DNA of 64,000 bases from Candidatus Limosilactobacillus intestinigallinarum (GTDB lineage Bacteria > Bacillota > Bacilli > Lactobacillales > Lactobacillaceae). The DNA lies in NCBI GenBank assembly GCA_019117285.1, contig DXAA01000003.1, forward strand, positions 53,243 through 117,242. Reading direction: 5' to 3'. The notes beneath the pieces are model-generated. The model was not told where the DNA came from. It made no database searches and saw only the letters and a program-made list of their open reading frames with translations. The position numbers and the translations under genes were made by a program. Positions 2,670-63,819 of the stretch are shown piece after piece; within the stretch, counting starts at the first letter, position 1; every line of letters starts with the position of its first letter.

Positions 2670-3998
2670 TTATGCATCAGCCAGGTGGCTAAACACCCGC
2701 CGATAATCAGCTGCCGTCACCATTCCGGCTGTTGTCCGCTGCTGTCGAACTAGCTTGCGCATGGTCGAACGATCGGCTAAGGCCACTTGCACCCGGTGAA
2801 TCAGCCTCTGATCCTCTTCTTTTGGAAATACATTTTCTGGAGTGACGTATTGGGGTTGGTGAAGGGTTGCCGTAAATCCCATAATCAGCATATTCTGCTC
2901 AAAGGCCTGCCGGACAACCCCGAGAACCTCATCCCCAGCGTTGATATCCAGCAGGATGTCGTCATTTGCCAGGGCGGCTTTAATCTGGGCAGGGCTAGCG
3001 TTGGGCGTGAGGGCCACGTTGGCGAAGCGGCGAACGGCCAACAACTTAGCCGACATGGCCGTCATCGCCATGATGTCAAAGTGCACATCTGGTAAGGCAT
3101 CGAGAATTGACGGCAGTTGTTCAACCTGATCGGAATTCGTTACGATCAACACCCGCGGTCGGCACTGGTTCTCCCGGATGGTCGGGTAGATCAGCCCCAG
3201 GTAGGCAAAGTCAACCTGGTCACTGGTCAGCTGGGGAGAATACTGTTGCCAATCTTGGTAACGCTGGAAAATAATGTGCTTCGTCCGGGTCGGTTTATTC
3301 ATCAAGGCCTGCATATTGGCTGGCAGGCCGCCCGTCAGTGGTTCTTGCCAAAACAGGGTGTCCGCCCCACGATCAGTAAGGCTCATCGATAGTTGGTAGG
3401 GCTCATTCAGGGTGTTATAGAGCACCCGATCAAGTCGATACCGCTGCCTGGCAAGATAGAAATGCCAAAAGTCATTCCGGCAGTTAAAACAGTAGCGTTG
3501 TCCATCGACATCCAAGATCAGGCTGCCAGTAATTAGGTTCTGGAAGGCATATTGGTGGCCAGTGGCGGTGAAGTACTTCTTCAGGACCGGCTGGCCATGG
3601 TCATAGATGGTCTGCGCGCAGCGATAGCCATATTGATTGTAGTGGTCAACCCATTGAAAGCCGCCGGCGGAGTCAAGCCACTGAACCGCCTTGACGAGGC
3701 GCCGGTTGTCGCGGTGAAGGTATTCGATGTTGGCCCGTTTAACACTCTCCTGATAGATCCCAGCAGCGTTCTGATCACCAACAATCCGCCAAAAACGCGG
3801 CACCGGCAGACGGTCAAAATACATTCCCGGACGACCCTGGTCAAAGTGGCCAAAGGTCTGCTGGGGTGAAGCCACTTCCGGCGGCAAGAAGCCGTCATCA
3901 TTCATCACAACGGTGGGCAGTTCAATGCCTGCGGTCTGTTGGGAATGCCAGAGATCCGCCGACCGCTGATCAAATCGTTCAAATAAGTTAATCATCAT
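2670..3998 (-). CDS. gtfB: GtfB-type accessory Sec/glycosylation chaperone of protein O-GlcNAc transferase
   Basis: 442 aa full-length; MINLFERFDQRSADLWHSQQTAG and downstream pattern typical of GtfB; overlaps gtfA stop. Confidence 0.85.
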   Translation of the reverse strand: MMINLFERFDQRSADLWHSQQTAGIELPTVVMNDDGFLPPEVASPQQTFGHFDQGRPGMYFDRLPVPRFWRIVGDQNAAGIYQESVKRANIEYLHRDNRRLVKAVQWLDSAGGFQWVDHYNQYGYRCAQTIYDHGQPVLKKYFTATGHQYAFQNLITGSLILDVDGQRYCFNCRNDFWHFYLARQRYRLDRVLYNTLNEPYQLSMSLTDRGADTLFWQEPLTGGLPANMQALMNKPTRTKHIIFQRYQDWQQYSPQLTSDQVDFAYLGLIYPTIRENQCRPRVLIVTNSDQVEQLPSILDALPDVHFDIMAMTAMSAKLLAVRRFANVALTPNASPAQIKAALANDDILLDINAGDEVLGVVRQAFEQNMLIMGFTATLHQPQYVTPENVFPKEEDQRLIHRVQVALADRSTMRKLVRQQRTTAGMVTAADYRRVFSHLADA

Positions 3999-5494
3999 CC
4001 AACCCTCCTAAGAATTGCTGCCATTGCCGGGCGACATTTTGGTCCAGATAAGGGGTCGCCAACTGGTAGGAATGCTGCCTAAAAGCCGCTAGTGAGTCCC
4101 GCTGGAAGAGCCGAATAATTCCCTGCGCCAGTTTTTGGACTTTCTCCTGGGCCGACCATGTCGCGGTGTACGGAATCAGATAGCCATTCTGACCATCATC
4201 AACCAGCGTCTGGTTCCCATATGGCACATCGAAGCCCACGACTGGCAGGCCAGAACCGATTGCTTCCAGCAGGCTGAGGCCAAATCCCTCCCCCGTCGAG
4301 GCCGACGCGTAGGCGGCGTACATGGTGTAGACCGTCGTCAAGTCCTGCTGGCCCTTCAAGTGAATATAATCGCTCGCCCCCGCCGCTTCAATCTGACTAG
4401 CGAGCTTGGCTTGCCCAGCTCCCTCACCATAGATATCAAGCGTGAGCCCGTCGCGCTAACACCACCGCCTGGATCAGCCAGTCCAGGTGTTTTTCCGGTG
4501 CCAACCGGGAAGCGGTAATCAGGGAAAACGGGCGCCGGGACCCCCGCGGATGGCGAAGCGTCGCCAGACTCCCTACGGGGATGACCGCTGTCTGGGGCCG
4601 ACAATGGTCAAATTCCAGCTGTTGGGTGACAAATCGTGATCGTTGCTGGTCCGTTGAAAAGAGAAAGCAGTCGATCGCGGCGGAATGATTAAACTGATAG
4701 TCATAGTATTCGTTCCAGAGGATGTTGCCATCATCGGTCGGCACATAGTGGTCGGCATGGATCGGGACCACCAGCTTAGCCGGCCCGTGGTTTTCCAGGA
4801 TCAGCTCACCATTTGCCAGCTGCTGGTCCTCATCCAGGCGATCCATCATGATCACGTCACCCTTTTGAAAACGCAGCCGCCGGAGCATCTCCCGATAGAG
4901 GTCATCCTTAGAGCAAACCACCTGATGGTCACTAAATTCAAAGCTCTCCCGGCCATTATTGAAGTGCTGGGTATAGGCCCGGCTACCGTCCTCATTGTAG
5001 AAGTCACGAGCAACAATGTAGTTCTGGTCTTTTCGGCCGTAATAGTACGTACTAGCGTAGCGGACGTACGAATAGGAATCATCCTGGATTAGCTTTCCTT
5101 GGTGAAAGTACAGCACCCGATCGATGGTCCCCTGCTGGCGGTCTACCACCCGCGCCTCGGCGGTCAGCTGGCCGGCAGTGTACTGGACCCGCTGGCCGTC
5201 ATCCAATACCGTCTTGGTAAAGCCCGGGGCGAGACGACGTTCAAACTGCCCCAGGCGGTAAGTGGTCGGCGCAATTTTGACGTCAGTAAAGAAATTGTAC
5301 AGCCAAATCACCTGGTCATCCGTCAGGCCAAGGTGACTGGTCAGGGTTTCCAAATTATTGGCTAGTAAAATATTGGAAAAGATAAACTTGGCGGGGATCC
5401 CCAACCGTTGCAGAATTTTGGCTCGGTATGCCTGAGCATATTCAATGCCGCTATTCGACCAACCGATCCCTAGGTTGATGTTATAAACTGTCAT
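3988..5494 (-). pseudogene. gtfA: GtfA-type protein O-glycosyltransferase, frameshifted into 5494-4436 (352 aa) and 4359-3988 plus upstream in-frame codons
   Basis: N-part ends ...LDWLIQAVVLARRAHA*; other frame continues LTLDIYGEGAGQAKLASQIEAAGASDYIHLKGQQDLTTVYTMYAAYASASTGEGFGLSLLEAIGSGLPVVG, i.e. the GT4 C-terminal half. Confidence 0.8.
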
Positions 5495-5567: not shown

Positions 5568-5604
5568 AAAAAGAAAGGCCACCGCCAAAATGACGATGGT
5601 CCTT
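5568..5604 (-). terminator. Imperfect hairpin terminator between adhesin and gtfA
   Basis: aaggaccatcg...cggtggccttt imperfect stem followed by T-rich tract on minus strand. Confidence 0.45.
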
Positions 5605-5725: not shown

Positions 5726-5800
5726 TTATTCATGACGTTTCTTTGCAGCACCGAGCAAACTCAGCGTAGCCAGAGCACTCAGACCACCGAGGGCGACAGC
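5726..5800 (-). other. In-frame continuation after adhesin stop: AVALGGLSALATLSLLGAAKKRHE* (LPXTG-type membrane segment plus charged tail)
   Basis: Codon-by-codon reading of minus strand after the TAA at 5803-5801 gives hydrophobic helix + KKRHE then TAA at 5728-5726. Confidence 0.9.
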
Positions 5801-8800
5801 TTAGGCGGCGTCGTCATTACCAGTCTGTGGCAAGGTGCTGTTGCTGCCGGCGGCGTTGGTGGTAGTGCCGTTATTAACGGCCCGGCTACCAGTCGTCACT
5901 ACCTGGCCGCTGTGGCCATTGCCACCGGTGTAGCTAGCAGTTGCCAGTCCACCTGGGGTGCCGGCCGTTTCAGCGCCGTAACCAGTAGTGGTAGGGCCAC
6001 CATTGTTAAGGTCGGCGTTGTTGCCAGTGAAGTCTTGATCGCTATTGGTCATGCCATTATCGCCTCCGTTAGCAATTCCACTATTATCAGTGGAACCACC
6101 GTTACCGTTGCTACCCTTGCTGTTACCGGCGTTGTCGGTGTTCTTCGTGTACGTTACGTAGGTATCAGTTCCAGGGTTGGTTGGAGTTGCCTGGTCGGTC
6201 GTGGCCGTGTAACCAGGAATCGTTGGCAGCTGTGGACTCAGCGCCTTGGTTGGATCGTTTGGATCATTCCGGTAGGTCGGCGTCGTGGCCCCAGTGATTG
6301 GCTTGCCATTGGCATCGACCGGGATTACCCGACCGAGTTTGTGATATTCGACCGTGTTCTCAATGTTTTGTTGAACAGCCGGTTGGCCAGCGATGGTCTT
6401 CTGCGTAGCGTAGTAGCCATCGACAACCGGAACCTTAACGTCCTGGTAACGCTTGATGTCAGGCATCCAGGCGGCGTCAGGATTCAGTACTTGGCCAGTG
6501 ACCTTATCAACCTTTACCGTCCGTGTCCAGTTAGAGGTCTGAACATTATCGTCCGCGATCTTATTACCGTTTGGATCAGTGAAGTGAACCGTAGCGGTGT
6601 AGGACTTGCTGTAGGTGTCCTTAGCTGGCCACTTAGCACCATTTGGATCGGCCGGATTGATCGGTGTCCCAGCCTGGTGCTGGTCGTTTGGCCCGTATTC
6701 CGCGGTCCCGTGCTTAACCGTGATCGTGTAACTATTCTTGTTAGGGTCACTGTTAAAGGTCGTATCGTTTGGAATATTGTTCTTGACGATCACGTAACCC
6801 TGGTCTTCTAGCGTCTTTTCGTCGGTCGTCGGGTCATAACCAAGCTTGGTGCCTGGCTTACCATTAACCGTGACGGTCTTAACTGGTTGGCCACCATTGT
6901 CTTGATCCGTGTAGGTAATGGTGATTGTGGTCTGGCCGTCATTAGGCGTTACCTGACTACCTTGACTCTGTTGTGAGTTGGAACCTTGGCTGCCTTGGCT
7001 TTGTTGCGAGTTCGAACCTTGTAAGCCTTGGCTGGTTTGACTCTGCTGTGAGTTAGAACCCTGACTGCCTTGGCTTTGCTGGGAGTTAGAACCCTGACTG
7101 CCTTGGCTTTGTTGTGAGTTGGAACCCTGACTGCCTTGGCTTTGTTGTGAGTTGGAACCCTGGCTACCTTGGCTTTGCTGTGAACCTTGGCTACCTTGAC
7201 TCTGCTGTGAGTTAGAGCCTTGACTGCCTTGACTTTGTTGCGAGTTGGAACCTTGGCTGCCTTGGCTTTGTTGCGAGTTGGAGCCTTGGGAGCCTTGGCT
7301 TTGCTGGGAGTTAGAACCCTGACTGCCTTGGCTTTGTTGTGAGTTGGAGCCTTGGCTGCCCTGGCTCTGCTGGGAGTTTGAACCTTGACTGCCTTGGCTT
7401 TGTTGTGAGTTTGAACCTTGGGAGCCCTGACTCTGTTGCGAGTTCGATCCTTGGCTGCCCTGACTCTGTTGTGAGTTTGAACCTTGACTGGTTTGACTCT
7501 GCTGTGAGTTCGAGCCTTGGCTGCCCTGACTCTGTTGCGAGTTGGAGCCTTGGCTGCCTTGACTCTGTTGTGAGTTAGAACCCTGGCTGCCTTGACTCTG
7601 CTGTGAGTTTGAACCTTGACTGCTTTGGCTTTGTTGTGAGTTGGAGCCTTGGCTGCCCTGACTCTGCTGGGAGTTAGAACCCTGACTACCTTGACTCTGT
7701 TGTGAGTTAGAACCCTGGCTGCCTTGACTCTGTTGTGAGTTAGAACCCTGACTGCCTTGGCTTTGTTGCGAGTTCGAGCCTTGGCTGCCTTGACTCTGTT
7801 GTGAGTTGGAGCCTTGTGAACCTTGACTCTGTTGTGAGTTGGAGTCTTGTGAACCTTGACTCTGTTGTGAATTGGAGCCTTGGGAGCCTTGGCTTTGTTG
7901 CGAGTTGGAGCCTTGTGAGCCTTGACTTTGTTGCGAGTTGGAACCTTGGCTGCCTTGGCTTTGCTGTGAGTTGGAGCCTTGGGAGCCTTGGCTTTGCTGG
8001 GAGTTAGAACCCTGACTGCCTTGGCTTTGTTGTGAGTTGGAACCTTGGGAGCCCTGACTCTGTTGCGAGTTCGATCCTTGGCTGCCCTGACTCTGTTGTG
8101 AGTTTGAACCTTGACTGGTTTGACTCTGCTGGGAGTTTGAACCTTGGGAGCCTTGGCTCTGCTGGGAGTTAGAACCCTGACTACCTTGGCTCTGTTGTGA
8201 GTTTGAACCTTGGCTGCCCTGACTCTGCTGGGAGTTTGATCCTTGGCTGCTCTGACTCTGTTGTGAATTAGAACCCTGGCTACCTTGTGAACCTTGGCTA
8301 TTGCTCAACAGGATCGTGTAGTTCTGTTGCGTGTAGACATCATGATCGAACATCTGTGGTGCCTTGGTATCGAAGTCATCCGAGATGACCCGGTAACCTT
8401 GGGCTCCTAAGACAACCAGTTCACCCTTGGTACTGTAAGCAATCGGGCTATTGGATTCGCCATAGATTGGACCAGAGGTCGCCAGTTGCTTACCAGTGTT
8501 GGCATCAACATAGGAGATCACGGCAACCTGTTCGTTCGTGTAACGAACATCGGTGTTCTGAATCGGGTCAGTTGGGGTGACGGTCGTGGATTGACCATCG
8601 GCTGGCCGGTATCCAGGAACTGCTGGAATTGCCTCGTTTGGTACCACCTTAGTCGGGTCGGTTGGATCCGTTGGGTACTGTGGTGTGGCGGCACCCTTGA
8701 TTGGGTTACCGTGCTGGTCAACTGGCACAATCTTGCCCGTCGGCTGGTAGACAACCGTGACCACAACGTCCTTGCTGTCGTGGGTCACCGTCTGACCCTT

Positions 8801-11800
8801 GACCAGCTTCGTGTTAGCCACGTAGCCATTCAGGGTTGGTACCGTGACATCTTGGTAGGTGTCACTGGTCTTATCCCAGGCCCCAGTGGTTGTCTTGCCA
8901 GTGGTTTCGTTCGTTACATCTGGTGTCCGGTTGAAGGTAATGGTCTGAACATTGTCTGGCAGAACCGTCTTGCCGGCCGCGTCGATGAAGTGAACGGTCT
9001 GCTTGATGTTGACGGTCTGGGCGTTCTTAGCCACCATGTTGTCCTTAACATAGTAGACATCCACCATCAGGTCACCAGAGTTGTAATCAAAGGTAACACC
9101 CTTCACGTTGGTGCCGTCAGCCTGGTCAGCTGGTGTGATCAGGGCAACATGTTCACCATCGATGGCTGGTGACGTAACTGCTGGCAGGCTTTCCTTGTCT
9201 GGAACCCAGTCCAGATGACCGATACCAGTGATCTTACCGTCCTTGTTGACGGAAACTAATTGGTGGGTGACTTTGTCGAAGTAGCCGGTGCCAACAAAGT
9301 TCATCGCGTCAGTCTTGTTGCCGACCAACTTGCCATCGGCGTTGATGTAGTTAATCGTCCGGGTAACCTTCCGCAGGAGATTCTCCCTCCCGTAGTTGTA
9401 GTCTGGCTGTGGCTGATTTGGCGTAACCGGCACAACCGTGTGGGTGAAGTGGATCGTGTAGGTCCGACCATCGTACTTCAGGTTCTGACCTTTGGTTGGG
9501 TCATTGACCAGCTGGTAACCACGGTTCTCGTAGTTCTGAATGGTGCTTGTGGTGTTGTAGTTGGCACTCTCACCCTCATTGCCGGCAAAGTGGTCAGCCT
9601 GGAGGGTGGTCCCATTAACATCATCAACGTAATCGACCGTCAGGTTCTTGATGTTGACGATTGGCGTGTAAACCACCGTCTCAATGTCATCGGGAGTCGT
9701 TGGCGTGATGCCCTTGACCTCCGGAACGCTCTCTTGGGATACCGTGTAGCCACTGATCTGCTTCGACGGTACGGCACCGAACGTGTTGTTCTGGTTGGTA
9801 TTCCAATTATCCGTGTTGGTTACCAGATCATGGCTCCCGGTGAAGGTAACGGTCTGAACCTGGTCACTGACCCCGGTCATCGGCGTCCCATCACTCTTGA
9901 TGTAACGGATGGTCCGCTTGACGGTCCGGTTCAGCGGTGTCGTGGCGTGGTTCAGGTAAATGTAGTAGACGTTGCCACGGTTGTTGTTGGCCTTGTCCGT
10001 GTAAGTGTAGGTCCTGTTGAAGCGGTAGGCGTTGGCTTCTTGGTTAAGCTTGCTTGCCGGCTGGTATTGGTAGTGAGCCGTGTAGACATAGTGGTTCAGA
10101 ATCGTTTCAGGGTCTTGACCGGCTGGGAAGCTGAAGTTGGAACCATAGTGACCCTTGTTGGTCTGCTTAGTCTCCAGGAGCTTGTAGCCGTTTGGTCCCT
10201 TGGCATCCTTGGTATCAGCGTCAAGAAATTGGACCTCACCCTGCTCGTCATCCCCTTGGTAGAAGACGTAGACGTTGCCAATTTGGTTCCGTTGTCCGGG
10301 ATAGGTAACTTCTATTTGGCCATTTTTTACATTATTCGGTGTTACGAACACGTCATTGCTTCCCTTAGTAATCGTGTGACCATTACCAAGTTGAGCTACG
10401 TTACCATTAACAGCTACTAAGTGATAGTGGGCAAAGTTTGATACATTAAGAGTTTGTTTAGTGTTCGGATCAGCATAACTAGTCTTACTAGTCAACTCCT
10501 TAGCCATTGGCAACCCTGTGTCAATGTTAAGATAATGAACATTGATACCGGCTTGATCAGTTATTGTTGACTTCGGAAGTGCTGGTGAAGCCTGATAAGA
10601 TGACCCCACGTTATTTCCTTGAGCATCTAGGGCTTGGATCTGTGCTGCGATATCTGGTGAGGCTTTAGTAGAATCGGTAACAGTTAAAGTTACCTGTGGT
10701 GTAACTAAAAATGCAGTGTTTTGTAACGCCCCACCATAGAATTTCTTAGTGTTAGCAAAAGCCTTTTGCGGGTCCTTATCTAAGGCAACCGTTTCAAGTG
10801 TTTTAGCACCAAAGTCAAAATTATCTTTGCTAAATTTAAGATCTGCATTAGGAATATGGAAAACTACTAAGTAAGACCCATCCTTCTTCTGGAAAGAATA
10901 TTCAACACCGGTAAAATTATCCTTATCCATCTGTGCAATAGTTAAGTCATTAGCAACTTGTTTAGGTGTGTAACCTATATCACCAACCTCAACGTTTTCG
11001 TCCCTTAATACACCATTACCGTCAACGCCAAAAAGAAATTTACATACAGCCGCTGCACTTAATTTAAGGCCGTATTTAGACTCAGGATCATCGACTCGCT
11101 CCAGCTGCCCAGTCTTAGTTACAGCATTAATTCGATAGAAAAACTTTTGGGTAGCCAAATTAACAGCACCTTTTTCCCCATGACTATTTACTAAGTCATT
11201 AAGAACTGATGCATTAGGGATTACTCGATTATAAGTGTAGTCATCTAAGCTAACCGTATTATGAGTAGCTACGTTAGCATAGTAATTTTCATGCATCGGA
11301 TAAGCTGGAAATGTATCTCGAGAGAAATTAAAGTTGTACTTACGTGGCTTACTATTAGCACCGGCAAATGTAACTGTTTCAGAATAAGGAAATTTTCCAG
11401 TTGCCAATGGTAAAAAAGTATCCTTAGGTGTTTGATAATTAAGTATCATGCCTGAAGCATTATCACCATTAGAAAATGTATTAAAGTGTCCAGTAACTTT
11501 ACCAATTAGTTGGGAATCTTCGGTAACCTTAATACCAAAAACCTGCTGACCATTATTATCAGGTAAGGTTAAAAATAAATTACCAAGAAGAGCACCATTA
11601 TCTAATTTTATTGGAGTCTCCCGGAGACTTAAAGGAACAACTTTACCATTAGAACTAGTATTAGTAATAGTTGCTAAGTTAATGGTATCTCCTTTTTTCA
11701 GCTCGCTGGCATCCTTAACGGTAAAGTTTCCTTGTACCTCGTACCCTACCCAGCTAGCAATAGTTATTTGGTTGTTCTCTGGAAGATCAGCAGTACTGTT

Positions 11801-12361
11801 TGCAGGTGATAGCTTAACTTCGCTCTGATCTGCCCAATACGTCTTTGCCTGAGTCTGATCATTGCTAGCCAGTGATTGATTAATTGCCGGTGTATTAGCA
11901 GCCGTAGTAGAACTCTTAACGTTCAATTGACTAGTAGCTTGATCCGCAGGTGCATTACTGGCCGCAGATGAACTAGCCAGCGTCGTCGTAGAGCTGCTGG
12001 TTGCCGGATTTTGACTTACTGCATTATTGGCCGATTGAGCGACTGTTGCAGACTGCGGCGTTGTGCTCGCAACTGCTGACTGAGGTGCTACGGACTGACT
12101 AGATGCCGTGGAAGCGCTGGCCTTCAGTACCGTCGTGTTCCCACTCTCAGCTGGGCTGACCGTTGCAACTTGGCCGCCATTATCAGCTGGTGCCGTGGCG
12201 GGTGCGGCCGTGTCCGCGTGGGCTACCGTGTTACCACCTAAATAAAAAGTCGTCCCCAACAGGACGGAGGTAACCCCGATGCCGAGCTTCCGCAGGCTCC
12301 AATGCTGGGCTTTGTCCGCCTGCAAAACATCTTTTAGATAACGATTATTCTTCGAAACCAT
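5801..12361 (-). CDS. YSIRK-signal Mub/MucBP-like adhesin with Ser/Gln/Gly/Asn repeat; ends right after LPQTGNDDAA
   Basis: WSLRKLGIGVTSVLLGTTFYLGG...AHA signal; several Mub-like modules (RYIKSDGTPM, INYINADGKLV, VHFIDAAGKTV, VISYVDANTGKQL, VHFTDPNGNKI); LPQTG near stop. Confidence 0.92.
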   Translation of the reverse strand: MVSKNNRYLKDVLQADKAQHWSLRKLGIGVTSVLLGTTFYLGGNTVAHADTAAPATAPADNGGQVATVSPAESGNTTVLKASASTASSQSVAPQSAVASTTPQSATVAQSANNAVSQNPATSSSTTTLASSSAASNAPADQATSQLNVKSSTTAANTPAINQSLASNDQTQAKTYWADQSEVKLSPANSTADLPENNQITIASWVGYEVQGNFTVKDASELKKGDTINLATITNTSSNGKVVPLSLRETPIKLDNGALLGNLFLTLPDNNGQQVFGIKVTEDSQLIGKVTGHFNTFSNGDNASGMILNYQTPKDTFLPLATGKFPYSETVTFAGANSKPRKYNFNFSRDTFPAYPMHENYYANVATHNTVSLDDYTYNRVIPNASVLNDLVNSHGEKGAVNLATQKFFYRINAVTKTGQLERVDDPESKYGLKLSAAAVCKFLFGVDGNGVLRDENVEVGDIGYTPKQVANDLTIAQMDKDNFTGVEYSFQKKDGSYLVVFHIPNADLKFSKDNFDFGAKTLETVALDKDPQKAFANTKKFYGGALQNTAFLVTPQVTLTVTDSTKASPDIAAQIQALDAQGNNVGSSYQASPALPKSTITDQAGINVHYLNIDTGLPMAKELTSKTSYADPNTKQTLNVSNFAHYHLVAVNGNVAQLGNGHTITKGSNDVFVTPNNVKNGQIEVTYPGQRNQIGNVYVFYQGDDEQGEVQFLDADTKDAKGPNGYKLLETKQTNKGHYGSNFSFPAGQDPETILNHYVYTAHYQYQPASKLNQEANAYRFNRTYTYTDKANNNRGNVYYIYLNHATTPLNRTVKRTIRYIKSDGTPMTGVSDQVQTVTFTGSHDLVTNTDNWNTNQNNTFGAVPSKQISGYTVSQESVPEVKGITPTTPDDIETVVYTPIVNIKNLTVDYVDDVNGTTLQADHFAGNEGESANYNTTSTIQNYENRGYQLVNDPTKGQNLKYDGRTYTIHFTHTVVPVTPNQPQPDYNYGRENLLRKVTRTINYINADGKLVGNKTDAMNFVGTGYFDKVTHQLVSVNKDGKITGIGHLDWVPDKESLPAVTSPAIDGEHVALITPADQADGTNVKGVTFDYNSGDLMVDVYYVKDNMVAKNAQTVNIKQTVHFIDAAGKTVLPDNVQTITFNRTPDVTNETTGKTTTGAWDKTSDTYQDVTVPTLNGYVANTKLVKGQTVTHDSKDVVVTVVYQPTGKIVPVDQHGNPIKGAATPQYPTDPTDPTKVVPNEAIPAVPGYRPADGQSTTVTPTDPIQNTDVRYTNEQVAVISYVDANTGKQLATSGPIYGESNSPIAYSTKGELVVLGAQGYRVISDDFDTKAPQMFDHDVYTQQNYTILLSNSQGSQGSQGSNSQQSQSSQGSNSQQSQGSQGSNSQQSQGSQGSNSQQSQGSQGSNSQQSQTSQGSNSQQSQGSQGSNSQQSQGSQGSNSQQSQGSQGSNSQQSQGSQGSNSQQSQGSQGSNSQQSQGSQGSNSQQSQGSQGSNSQQSQGSQDSNSQQSQGSQGSNSQQSQGSQGSNSQQSQGSQGSNSQQSQGSQGSNSQQSQGSQGSNSQQSQGSQGSNSQQSQSSQGSNSQQSQGSQGSNSQQSQGSQGSNSQQSQGSQGSNSQQSQTSQGSNSQQSQGSQGSNSQQSQGSQGSNSQQSQGSQGSNSQQSQGSQGSNSQQSQGSQGSNSQQSQGSQGSNSQQSQGSQGSNSQQSQGSQGSNSQQSQGSQGSQQSQGSQGSNSQQSQGSQGSNSQQSQGSQGSNSQQSQGSQGSNSQQSQTSQGLQGSNSQQSQGSQGSNSQQSQGSQVTPNDGQTTITITYTDQDNGGQPVKTVTVNGKPGTKLGYDPTTDEKTLEDQGYVIVKNNIPNDTTFNSDPNKNSYTITVKHGTAEYGPNDQHQAGTPINPADPNGAKWPAKDTYSKSYTATVHFTDPNGNKIADDNVQTSNWTRTVKVDKVTGQVLNPDAAWMPDIKRYQDVKVPVVDGYYATQKTIAGQPAVQQNIENTVEYHKLGRVIPVDANGKPITGATTPTYRNDPNDPTKALSPQLPTIPGYTATTDQATPTNPGTDTYVTYTKNTDNAGNSKGSNGNGGSTDNSGIANGGDNGMTNSDQDFTGNNADLNNGGPTTTGYGAETAGTPGGLATASYTGGNGHSGQVVTTGSRAVNNGTTTNAAGSNSTLPQTGNDDAA
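6953..8305 (-). repeat. 33-bp (11 aa, SQGSNSQQSQG) tandem repeat region of adhesin, about 40 units
   Basis: Direct reading of repeated GSNSQQSQGSQ units; variants with T, S, D, one shortened and one lengthened unit. Confidence 0.95.
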
Positions 12362-12720: not shown

Positions 12721-13779
12721 TTAAAGCAGGCCATCCTTGACCAGGCACTCGGCGTTCTCGACCGTGTTCCAGGCGGCCCCCTTCAGGAGGTTATCGGCGA
12801 CCACCCACATGTTGAAGGAACCCGGGTTCTCCGCGTCCGCCCGCAGCCGGCCGACGAAGGTGTCGCGCTTGCCGACGGCGTTCAGCGGTTGCGGATAGAT
12901 CTGGTGGGCCGGATCATCCTGGAGAACGACGCCCGGGGCCCCCTGCAGGGCTTCCCGGAGCTGGTCGACGGTGACGGTCGGGTCATCGACCGTGAAGTAG
13001 ACCGATTCCCCATGGGCGATCGGCACGGGCACCCGGACACAAGTGGCGGTGACCTTGATGTCCTTGGCGTTCATATCGTTGAGCATGATCTTCTTGGTCT
13101 CGTGGATCATCTTCCATTCCTCGTGGGAGTAGCCATCGTCCTCGAAGATGTCAATCTGCGGCAGGAGGTTGAAGGCCAGCGGGTAGTGCTTCTTGTCCCC
13201 CTTGGTCGGCAGGATCTGGGCATCCCCCTGAATGTCCTTGCCATCCAGGTAGTCCTGGGCCTCCTGCTTCAGTTCGTTTAAGGCGGACTGCCCGGCCCCG
13301 GACGCCGCCTGGTAGGTGGAGACGATTACCTGCTTGAGGCCGAACGCCTTGCGGATCGGCTCCAGGGCAACGACCATCTGAATCGTTGAGCAGTTCGGGT
13401 TGGCGACGATCCCGTGATGGTGCTTCAGGGCGTCCTCGTTCACCTCAGGAACCACCAGCGGCACGTCCGGTTCCATCCGGAAGGCGCTGGTGTTGTCGAC
13501 ACAGACCGCCCCGCGCTTGACGGCCTCGGGCAGGAGCTTTTTAGAGACGCTGCCCCCGGCGGAGGAGAGGACCAGGTCAATCCCGTTAAAGGAGTCCGTG
13601 GTGGCCTCTTCGACCGTGATCGGCTGCCCCTTAAACTGAAGCTGCTTACCGGCGGACCGGCTGGAGGCCAAAAGCTTCAGGCTCTTGACCGGGATGGTGG
13701 ATTGTTCAAGCTGTTGGATCATCCGGGTACCCACCGCACCGGTGGCCCCTAAAATTGCGACATTGTATTCCTTACTCAT
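12721..13779 (-). CDS. asd: Aspartate-semialdehyde dehydrogenase
   Basis: 352 aa; [31 protein letters not shown] active-site motif. Confidence 0.95.
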
Positions 13780-13804
13780 ATAACGATTCTTCTTTCTGTC
13801 TGTG

Positions 13805-14584
13805 CTAAAGGATATTCTCGAGGCCGATCACCAACTGGTCCAGCTGGTCGACCTTGTCCAGGGCCACCTTGACCCCGCTCATGAACGACTGGCGGTCAAA
13901 GGAGTCCTGCCGGATGGTCAGGGCCTCGCCGGCACCCCCGAAGAGGACCTGCTCGTGGGCAATGTAGCCGGGCAGGCGGACGGAATGGATCTTGATTCCG
14001 TGATAGTCACCGCCGCGGACCCCGGCCAAGCTCTCCTGCTCATCGGGGTTGGTCTCGTGAGCATTGCGAACCTGGTCGATCAGCTTGGCCGTGCTCAGGG
14101 CGGTCCCGGACGGGGCGTCCTTCTTATCGGCGTGGTGCATCTCAATGATCTCGACGTCCGGGAAGTAGGCCGCCGCCTCCTTGGCAAACTTCATCAAGAG
14201 GACGGCCGACATCCCGAAGTTCGGCGCGATCAGGCCGCCCAACCCCTTCTCTTGGCTGAGTTTGACCAGTTCATCCTCTTGGTCATCGGTCAGGCCGGTC
14301 GTGCCAACGATCGGCCGCATCCCGTGTTGGAGGGCGAACTTGACGTTTTCGTAGACGGCGTCTGGCAGGGTGAAGTCGACCCAGACGTCGGCAACCCCAT
14401 CCTCAATCTCCGCCAGCTGATGGTAGACCTTGACTGATGGGTCCAGGTGGTACTGGGCCGCCTGGTCGGCCGCCAGATGGGGCGCCAGAACGGCGGTCAG
14501 CTGGCAGTTCGGCAGGGCGTTGACCAGGTCAACGGCCTTCTGCCCCATCGCTCCGGCGGCACCAGCAATTAAAACCTTCTTCAT
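13805..14584 (-). CDS. dapB: 4-hydroxy-tetrahydrodipicolinate reductase
   Basis: [36 protein letters not shown] motif. Confidence 0.95.
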
Positions 14585-62025: not shown

Positions 62026-62032
62026 AAGCTAC

Positions 62033-62106
62033 GGTCCGTACGAGACTCGAACTCGTGATCTCATCCGTGACAGGGATGCGTCCTAAACCAACTAGACCAA
62101 CGGACC
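62033..62106 (-). tRNA. tRNA-Asp (GTC) copy 1
   Basis: Cloverleaf; loop CTGTCAC. Confidence 0.93.
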
Positions 62107-62112
62107 AAAAAT

Positions 62113-62185
<73 letters not shown>

Positions 62186-62196
62186 ATAATGAAAAG

Positions 62197-62268
62197 TGAC
62201 CCGTGCGGGATTTGAACCCACGATACCAGCGTGAAAGGCTGGTGTCTTAACCACTTGACTAACGGGTC
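62197..62268 (-). tRNA. tRNA-Glu (TTC)
   Basis: Cloverleaf; loop CTTTCAC. Confidence 0.93.
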
Positions 62269-62274
62269 ATTAAC

Positions 62275-62362
62275 GGAGAATGAGGGATTCGAACCCTCGC
62301 GCCGCTTTCGCGACCTACACCCTTAGCAGGGGCGCCTCTTCAGCCAACTTGAGTAATTCTCC
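62275..62362 (-). tRNA. tRNA-Ser (GCT)
   Basis: Long variable arm; loop CTGCTAA. Confidence 0.93.
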
Positions 62363-62366
62363 ATAA

Positions 62367-62441
<75 letters not shown>

Positions 62442-62445
62442 ATAA

Positions 62446-62516
62446 AGCGGGTAACGAGAATCGAACTCGCGACAACAGCTTGGAAGGCTGTGGTTTTACC
62501 ACTAAACTATACCCGC
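62446..62516 (-). tRNA. tRNA-Gly (TCC)
   Basis: Cloverleaf; anticodon TCC. Confidence 0.93.
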
Positions 62517-62534
62517 AATATTATTTACTTGTAA

Positions 62535-62607
62535 TGGCGCGGGACGGAATCGAACCGCCGACACACGGAGCTTCAATCCGTTGCTCTACCAACTGAGCTA
62601 CCGAGCC
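62535..62607 (-). tRNA. tRNA-Phe (GAA), T4-C69 acceptor mismatch
   Basis: GGCTCGG / CCGCGCC acceptor; loop TTGAAGC. Confidence 0.9.
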
Positions 62608-62617
62608 AAACTGAAGC

Positions 62618-62691
62618 GGTCCGTACGAGACTCGAACTCGTGATCTCATCCGTGACAGGGATGCGTCCTAAACCAACTAGACCAACGGACC
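62618..62691 (-). tRNA. tRNA-Asp (GTC) copy 2
   Basis: Identical to copy 1. Confidence 0.93.
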
Positions 62692-62696
62692 AAAAT

Positions 62697-62769
<73 letters not shown>

Positions 62770-62779
62770 ATAATAAGAA

Positions 62780-62866
62780 GGAGGATGAGGGATTCGAACC
62801 CTCGCGTCGCTCTCACGGCCTAGCGGTTTTCAAGACCGCCCCCTTCAGCCACTTGGGTAATCCTCC
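62780..62866 (-). tRNA. tRNA-Ser (TGA)
   Basis: Long variable arm; loop CTTGAAA. Confidence 0.93.
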
Positions 62867-62897
62867 ATAATATGAATGTGTTCACCAAAACAATTGA

Positions 62898-62971
62898 TGG
62901 ACCTTGTAGGACTCGAACCTACGACCGGGCGGTTATGAGCCGCTTGCTCTAACCAACTGAGCTAAAGGTCC
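62898..62971 (-). tRNA. CAT-anticodon tRNA resembling tRNA-Ile2 (lysidine type)
   Basis: GGACCTTTAGCTCAG...CTCATAA...; distinct from the elongator Met next to it. Confidence 0.8.
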
Positions 62972-62987
62972 AAAACAGCCAGGTAAA

Positions 62988-63061
62988 TCGCGGCGGGGGG
63001 GATCGAACCCTCGACCTCCCGGGTATGAACCGGACGCTCTAGCCAGCTGAGCTACACCGCG
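62988..63061 (-). tRNA. tRNA-Met (CAT, elongator)
   Basis: CGCGGTGTAGCTCAGCTGGCTAGAGCG...TTCATAC. Confidence 0.88.
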
Positions 63062-63084
63062 AAAACTAATATTAAATTAGTAAG

Positions 63085-63158
63085 TCGGGAAAACAGGATT
63101 CGAACCTGCGACCCCCTGGTCCCAAACCAGGTGCTCTACCAAGCTGAGCTATTTCCCG
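63085..63158 (-). tRNA. tRNA-Pro (TGG)
   Basis: Cloverleaf; loop TTTGGGA. Confidence 0.93.
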
Positions 63159-63165
63159 AAAAAAG

Positions 63166-63239
63166 TGCACCCAGAAGGAGTCGAACCTTCAACCTTCTGA
63201 TTCGTAGTCAGACACTCTATCCAATTGCGCTATGGGTGC
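63166..63239 (-). tRNA. tRNA-Arg (ACG)
   Basis: Cloverleaf; loop CTACGAA. Confidence 0.93.
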
Positions 63240-63247
63240 ATAATAAG

Positions 63248-63333
63248 TGCCGAGGACCGGGATCGAACCGGTACGGTTATCACTAACCGCGGGATTTTAA
63301 GTCCCGTGCGTCTGCCAATTCCGCCACCCCGGC
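63248..63333 (-). tRNA. tRNA-Leu (TAA)
   Basis: Long variable arm; loop CTTAAAA. Confidence 0.93.
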
Positions 63334-63349
63334 ATTATAGAACTGGCAA

Positions 63350-63421
63350 AGCGGAAGACGGGATTCGAACCCGCGACCCCCACCATGGCAAGGTGATGTT
63401 CTACCACTGAACTACTTCCGC
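63350..63421 (-). tRNA. tRNA-Gly (GCC)
   Basis: Cloverleaf; loop TTGCCAT. Confidence 0.93.
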
Positions 63422-63429
63422 ATATTTAG

Positions 63430-63502
63430 TGCCGACTAGAGGATTCGAACCTCCGACCCCCTGTTTACAAGACAGATGCTCTGCCAACTGAGCTAAGTCG
63501 GC
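63430..63502 (-). tRNA. tRNA-Thr (TGT)
   Basis: Cloverleaf; loop CTTGTAA. Confidence 0.93.
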
Positions 63503-63546
63503 ATGGACAACACATTCATTATACCAAACCGATAGCTGTTTGGCAA

Positions 63547-63619
63547 TGAGCCGTGTGGGGATCGAACCCACGACCCTCTGATTAAAAGTCAGATGCTCTA
63601 CCAACTGAGCTAACGGCTC
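63547..63619 (-). tRNA. tRNA-Lys (TTT)
   Basis: Cloverleaf; loop CTTTTAA. Confidence 0.93.
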
Positions 63620-63621
63620 AA

Positions 63622-63694
63622 TGGAGGATACAGGGCTCGAACCTGTGACCCTCTGCTTGTAAGGCAGACGCTCTCCCAACTGAGCTAATCCTCC
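63622..63694 (-). tRNA. tRNA-Val (TAC)
   Basis: Cloverleaf; loop CTTACAA. Confidence 0.93.
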
Positions 63695-63701
63695 AAAAAC
63701 C

Positions 63702-63819
63702 GCGTGGCAACGTCCTATCCTCGCAGGGAGCGATCCCCCAACTACTTTCGGCGTGTTGAAGCTTAACTTCTGTGTTCGGCATGGGAACAGGTGTATCCTT
63801 CAAGCCATCATCACCACAC
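63702..63819 (-). rRNA. rrf: 5S ribosomal RNA
   Basis: Characteristic 5S sequence between 23S and tRNA-Val. Confidence 0.93.

Follow-up and report, generated by a model that had tools for sequence, protein, structure and literature searches.

Probable recent loss of the cell-wall anchor from a giant serine-rich adhesin in a decaying adhesin-gtfA-gtfB locus of Candidatus Limosilactobacillus intestinigallinarum

The adhesin, its orphaned anchor and the adjoining gtfA and gtfB

A gene for a giant adhesin adjoins gtfA and gtfB on the minus strand of a 64,000-nucleotide stretch of the Candidatus Limosilactobacillus intestinigallinarum genome (contig DXAA01000003.1, positions 53,243 to 117,242), referred to here as the window (Table 1). 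The source assembly is a draft in 17 contigs with a completeness of 66.87%. The open reading frame of the adhesin agrees with the length of 2186 aa given in a preliminary description of this DNA. The export signal of LPXTG surface proteins is present in the form of a YSIRK motif, with both PF04650 and TIGR01168 above their cut-offs. Three stretches of MucBP_2 (PF17965) and four of Muc_B2 (PF17966) lie within the protein, together with a repeat region composed of 36% Ser, 36% Gln and 17% Gly. An antisense open reading frame (5732..6811, plus strand) lies opposite the adhesin coding sequence.

Table 1. Positions in the window of the adhesin, its anchor and the neighbouring genes
Feature	Coordinates	Strand	Evidence
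Adhesin open reading frame, 2186 aa	5801..12361	-	ATG to premature TAA; Muc_B2, MucBP_2, YSIRK_signal (Pfam)
YSIRK-type signal peptide motif, residues 16-41	12239..12316	-	PF04650 26 bits (cut-off 20); TIGR01168 28.1 bits (cut-off 20.2)
Top-scoring MucBP_2 mucin-binding domain, residues 906-974	9440..9646	-	PF17965, 100.5 bits
Top-scoring Muc_B2 domain, residues 1111-1208	8738..9031	-	PF17966, 196.2 bits
Ser/Gln-rich repeat region, ~450 residues, SQQSQGSQGSN type	6953..8302	-	Composition
LPQTG sortase motif	5819..5833	-	Direct reading
In-frame TAA	5801..5803	-	Sense codon opposite in syntenic orthologue, one-codon gap nearby in alignment
Orphaned anchor: hydrophobic helix with KKRHE tail (24 codons) and the original TAA (5726-5728)	5726..5800	-	Reading, PF00746, TIGR01167, orthologue
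Hairpin resembling a terminator, with T-rich tail, in the adhesin-gtfA interval	5579..5599	-	Consensus match only
gtfA 5' part, 352 aa open reading frame	4436..5494	-	TIGR02918 positions 1-346 of 500; deletion brings its stop into frame
gtfA 11-base deletion, approximate junction	4446..4452	-	Comparison with gtfA loci of 20 relatives
gtfA 3' part, other frame	3988..4446	-	TIGR02918 positions 351-498
gtfB, glycosylation chaperone, full length	2670..3998	-	TIGR02919 450.2 bits (cut-off 338.3)

Sortase substrates are held in the membrane by a hydrophobic helix and a charged tail that follow the LPXTG motif. The preliminary description had claimed that the adhesin runs through LPQTGNDDAA into a TAA and that the anchor continues in frame beyond it, and the minus strand at 5726-5833 matches that quotation letter for letter, translating as LPQTGNDDAA, a stop, AVALGGLSALATLSLLGAAKKRHE and a further stop. 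The premature TAA stands ten codons past the start of LPQTG and ~1.1 kb from the repeats, where the sequence is unique. LPQTGNDDAA is the C-terminus of the protein as read, and in the translated product the motif is followed by neither the helix nor the positive tail. With the stop entered as X, the tail read across it scores 23.7 bits for Gram_pos_anchor (PF00746, Pfam, cut-off 20) and 28.5 bits for LPXTG_anchor (TIGR01167, NCBIfam, cut-off 15.9), and 20 of the 24 residues beyond the stop are shared with the anchor in the syntenic orthologue described below. The in-frame anchor past the TAA is therefore real, a chance reading being excluded by the two families and by the identity to the orthologue. 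Among the matches listed in genus-wide searches for LPXTG anchors, none of the others contained an internal stop.

A further lesion, absent from the preliminary description, lies in the adjoining gtfA. The interval from RLAxEKH to LDIYG spans 31 residues in the gtfA loci of all 20 relatives compared; the window gene has 82 bases here against 93, so that 11 are missing. Compared with its orthologue, gtfA has pN 0.16 and pS 0.68 beyond the deletion and pN 0.12 and pS 0.70 before it. In other lactobacilli, GtfA and GtfB act together to prime glycan on serine-rich repeats (PMC6973325). The linkage suggests that the pair acts on the adjoining adhesin, where GtfA would be expected to start O-glycosylation. 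A sequence similar to the hairpin between adhesin and gtfA stands at the same place of the orthologous locus; shuffled sequence would be expected to give at least as many terminator-like sites as the region contains, and the hairpin thus counts as a consensus match only.

Comparison with the orthologous locus

A search for relatives with the C-terminal 299 residues of the adhesin alone returned none, and the aligned middle region returned two related species. The nearest relatives of the adhesin in the public collection were found in Limosilactobacillus kribbianus and in a MAG labelled 'uncultured Lactobacillus sp.' (SRR15732360_bin.36), which gives the same matches as the sister MAG described next. 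One syntenic orthologue was obtained, from a sister Limosilactobacillus MAG (G002) in which the gene order is the same and the locus is divided over two contigs, broken within the repeats. Contig C32 holds dapA, dapB, asd and the N-terminal part of the adhesin, and contig C110 holds its C-terminal part, gtfA, gtfB and an NlpC/P60 gene, so that the orthologous adhesin is flanked by dap genes and asd upstream and by gtfA, gtfB and NlpC/P60 downstream. Since the intergenic stretch 3' of the adhesin is also alike in the sister MAG, this is taken as the orthologous place. Both gtfA and gtfB are whole there.

The C-terminus of the sister adhesin reads LPQTGNEAQEAIALGGLSALATLGMVGAAKKRHE and is stop-free. 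The preliminary description had proposed an alignment of orthologous adhesins as a check, and the alignment gave a stop-free syntenic orthologue that has a near-identical anchor (n=1). Because this orthologue reads through to its anchor, the anchor would most simply be ancestral and the TAA derived, a polarity taken from a single orthologue. Over the 24 codons beyond the stop, the two genes are separated by 15.0 synonymous and 4.0 nonsynonymous differences (pS 0.77, pN 0.08). As these differences are mostly synonymous, purifying selection acted on the tail over most of the time since the two genes diverged. Taken alone, the preservation of the tail fits a recent stop and readthrough alike.

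Related adhesins, housekeeping genes and the secretion system

Lesions also exist in other adhesins of this kind. The orthologous adhesin of the sister MAG carries its own 1-base frameshift near codon 468 (L052, about 3090-3110, minus strand), with the rest open; its anchor is whole, as are gtfA and gtfB. In a second giant adhesin (~2650 aa), encoded in the same genome as the window, codon 11 is a TAA. Limosilactobacillus kribbianus (G058, contigs C14 and C24; L055 and L056) contains two related giant adhesins with single in-frame stops, a TGA and a TAA, in their N-terminal parts. In a search with the adhesin N-terminal region across the genus, stops fell within about fourteen of the matches listed. 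The TAA of the second giant adhesin lies at L058 4688-4726 (G000:C12, about 114687-114725, plus strand); two codons after it stands an ATG, and translation from there could still include the YSIRK signal. The same locus (12995-14326, plus strand) also encodes a 443-aa YSIRK protein with LPGKV instead of LPXTG in its C-terminal anchor, followed by a hydrophobic stretch and a basic tail.

The housekeeping genes of the window present a different picture. About 22 of them look full length and span their families, including dapA, dapB, dapH, an M20 peptidase gene, asd, lysA, dapF, prs and recD2, as well as mnmA, a cysteine desulfurase gene, ileS, ftsA, ftsZ, murD, murG, the gene for PBP2X and ftsK. 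Because these genes span their families, generally poor sequence is argued against. At the contig end (window 62031-63818, minus strand), 19 tRNA genes follow 5S rRNA and the end of 23S rRNA.

The class of the adhesin was also considered. A serine-rich repeat region of the length seen in Table 1, with 36% Ser, and gtfA and gtfB adjoining the adhesin (gtfB whole, gtfA broken) are both features of accessory Sec glycoproteins. However, the first 120 residues of the adhesin contain no KxYKxGKxW-type signal peptide and have the YSIRK type instead. One SecA-family match was found in the incomplete draft genome of the window and one in each of two adhesin-bearing relatives; two were found in each of two other species, one of them beside gtfA in each case. 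The single match is probably the housekeeping SecA, and a distinct SecA2 was recognised neither in the incomplete draft nor in the two adhesin-bearing relatives. The adhesin was accordingly not filed as an accessory Sec serine-rich glycoprotein, since the repeats and gtfAB fit that class, the signal peptide does not, and no distinct SecA2 was recognised. In the window's own genome, the sister MAG and L. kribbianus, GtfA/GtfB genes adjoin a YSIRK-type adhesin and no SecA2 can be recognised close by; a glyco-adhesin module independent of accessory Sec is possible.

The incomplete draft gave no match to the sortase family PF04203, of which two relatives have one each. The neighbouring gene htpX is missing from the draft too, so the sortase region was probably not assembled. 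A missing sortase as the cause of relaxed selection on the anchor was rejected as uninformative, because the gene next to the relative's sortase is also missing from the draft.

Origin of the premature stop and its meaning

The locus is best explained by a recent nonsense mutation, which very probably cut the anchor off a giant Muc_B2/MucBP_2 serine-rich adhesin within a decaying adhesin-gtfA-gtfB locus. The preliminary description had left three options: a recent lesion, readthrough giving anchored and released forms, or a base-call error. The recent lesion has been strengthened by the stop-free orthologue, the synonymous changes in the tail and the deletion in gtfA; readthrough has gained no support, and a base-call error has become less likely. 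Both lesions would be recent and fixed in the strain. Preservation beyond a lesion is most simply read as a sign that the lesion is young, because the 3' part of gtfA, which lies past a deletion that stop readthrough could not span, is also preserved.

An error of sequencing or consensus, or a mixture of strains in the draft, would mean that the living strain has a sense codon at this place and an anchored adhesin. The draft is incomplete and in 17 contigs, the adhesin gene is long and repeat-rich, and a stop-free orthologue would be expected just as much if the window sequence were wrong at this place. The stop itself, however, lies in unique sequence well away from the repeats, the housekeeping genes of the window look intact, and gtfA close by is separately affected by a deletion of 11 bases, atypical for a base-call error. 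An error is therefore unlikely, though it keeps an appreciable chance. Partial readthrough of the UAA, by which one gene would give an adhesin that is largely released and to a small extent wall-anchored, draws on the codons past the stop, which still encode a good anchor and differ from the orthologue mostly at synonymous sites. The stop is not conserved, however, and the orthologue lacks it at the same place. The stop and the sequence after it, 75 bases in all, show no stronger folding than shuffled sequences (z -0.34). The 19 tRNAs encoded in the window, which are only part of the genome's set, include no UAA-reading anticodon, and UAA is in general the least leaky stop in bacteria. In addition, gtfA is preserved past a deletion whose frame stop readthrough could not mend. 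Readthrough is thus highly improbable.

Selection for the release of the adhesin would make the stop adaptive. In favour of this, the lesion falls at the one point where the anchor is lost and every adhesive domain kept, and a published comment holds that anchorless serine-rich repeat proteins (SRRPs) may still be exported and functional (PMC6973325). However, gtfA is broken too, and related adhesins are hit at other points (around codon 468, within the signal region, in mid-protein), which looks like general decay. An adaptive stop accordingly has very little probability. Ordinary disuse of the adhesin locus is the most likely reading, ahead of a new way of making two forms of one protein.

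Under the nonsense mutation, the adhesin, if expressed, would leave the cell by way of its YSIRK signal peptide. Translation would end ten codons after the start of LPQTG, and the helix and charged tail would be missing. The protein would keep LPQTG yet would not be held in the membrane for sortase, and established sortase biology implies that it would be released rather than linked to the wall, provided that it is expressed. With gtfA broken, its product would leave the repeats of the adhesin unprimed. The adhesin may thus be made, released and left without its glycosylation. It is otherwise open over its 2186 codons, and the stop alone need not abolish every function.

Anchorless pseudo-adhesins have already been documented in lactobacilli, and the present case is one more example. 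A review treats the genes of anchorless SRRPs and pseudo-SRRPs of lactobacilli and streptococci as probable pseudogenes from which a secreted protein might still be made (PMC6973325). The window adhesin resembles them as a serine-rich adhesin with export signal and domains kept and only the LPXTG anchor missing; unlike them, it has a YSIRK signal instead of KxYKxGKxW, has no SecA2/SecY2 cluster beside it, and keeps LPQTG, with only the helix and tail cut off. In pig Limosilactobacillus reuteri, MucBP-LPXTG pseudogenes exist in one lineage and intact homologues in others, and the authors suggest loss during host adaptation (PMC4667477). That case concerns another adhesin in another species, whereas here the stop lies right at the anchor and the glycosyltransferase is also broken. 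Premature stops in FnBPA and FnBPB of Staphylococcus aureus Newman remove the anchor and leave the adhesins unattached to the wall (PMC3419684). The likeness is that of a point lesion removing the anchor, but the FnBP truncation falls before the LPXTG motif, and host and ligand differ (PMC3419684). Pneumococcal NanA was set aside as a parallel because the paper found contained no description of an anchorless form. InlA of Listeria monocytogenes is an LPXTG protein. Natural premature stop alleles of inlA are on record as well (PMC5131979); unlike the window adhesin, this is a pathogen invasin with many known alleles surveyed over many isolates.

The locus also carries a caution: in-frame coding past a stop should not be taken as evidence of readthrough, since the deletion-broken gtfA is about as well preserved downstream of its lesion. 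That the anchor and the priming glycosyltransferase were both lost suggests that selection has relaxed across the glyco-adhesin module as a whole.
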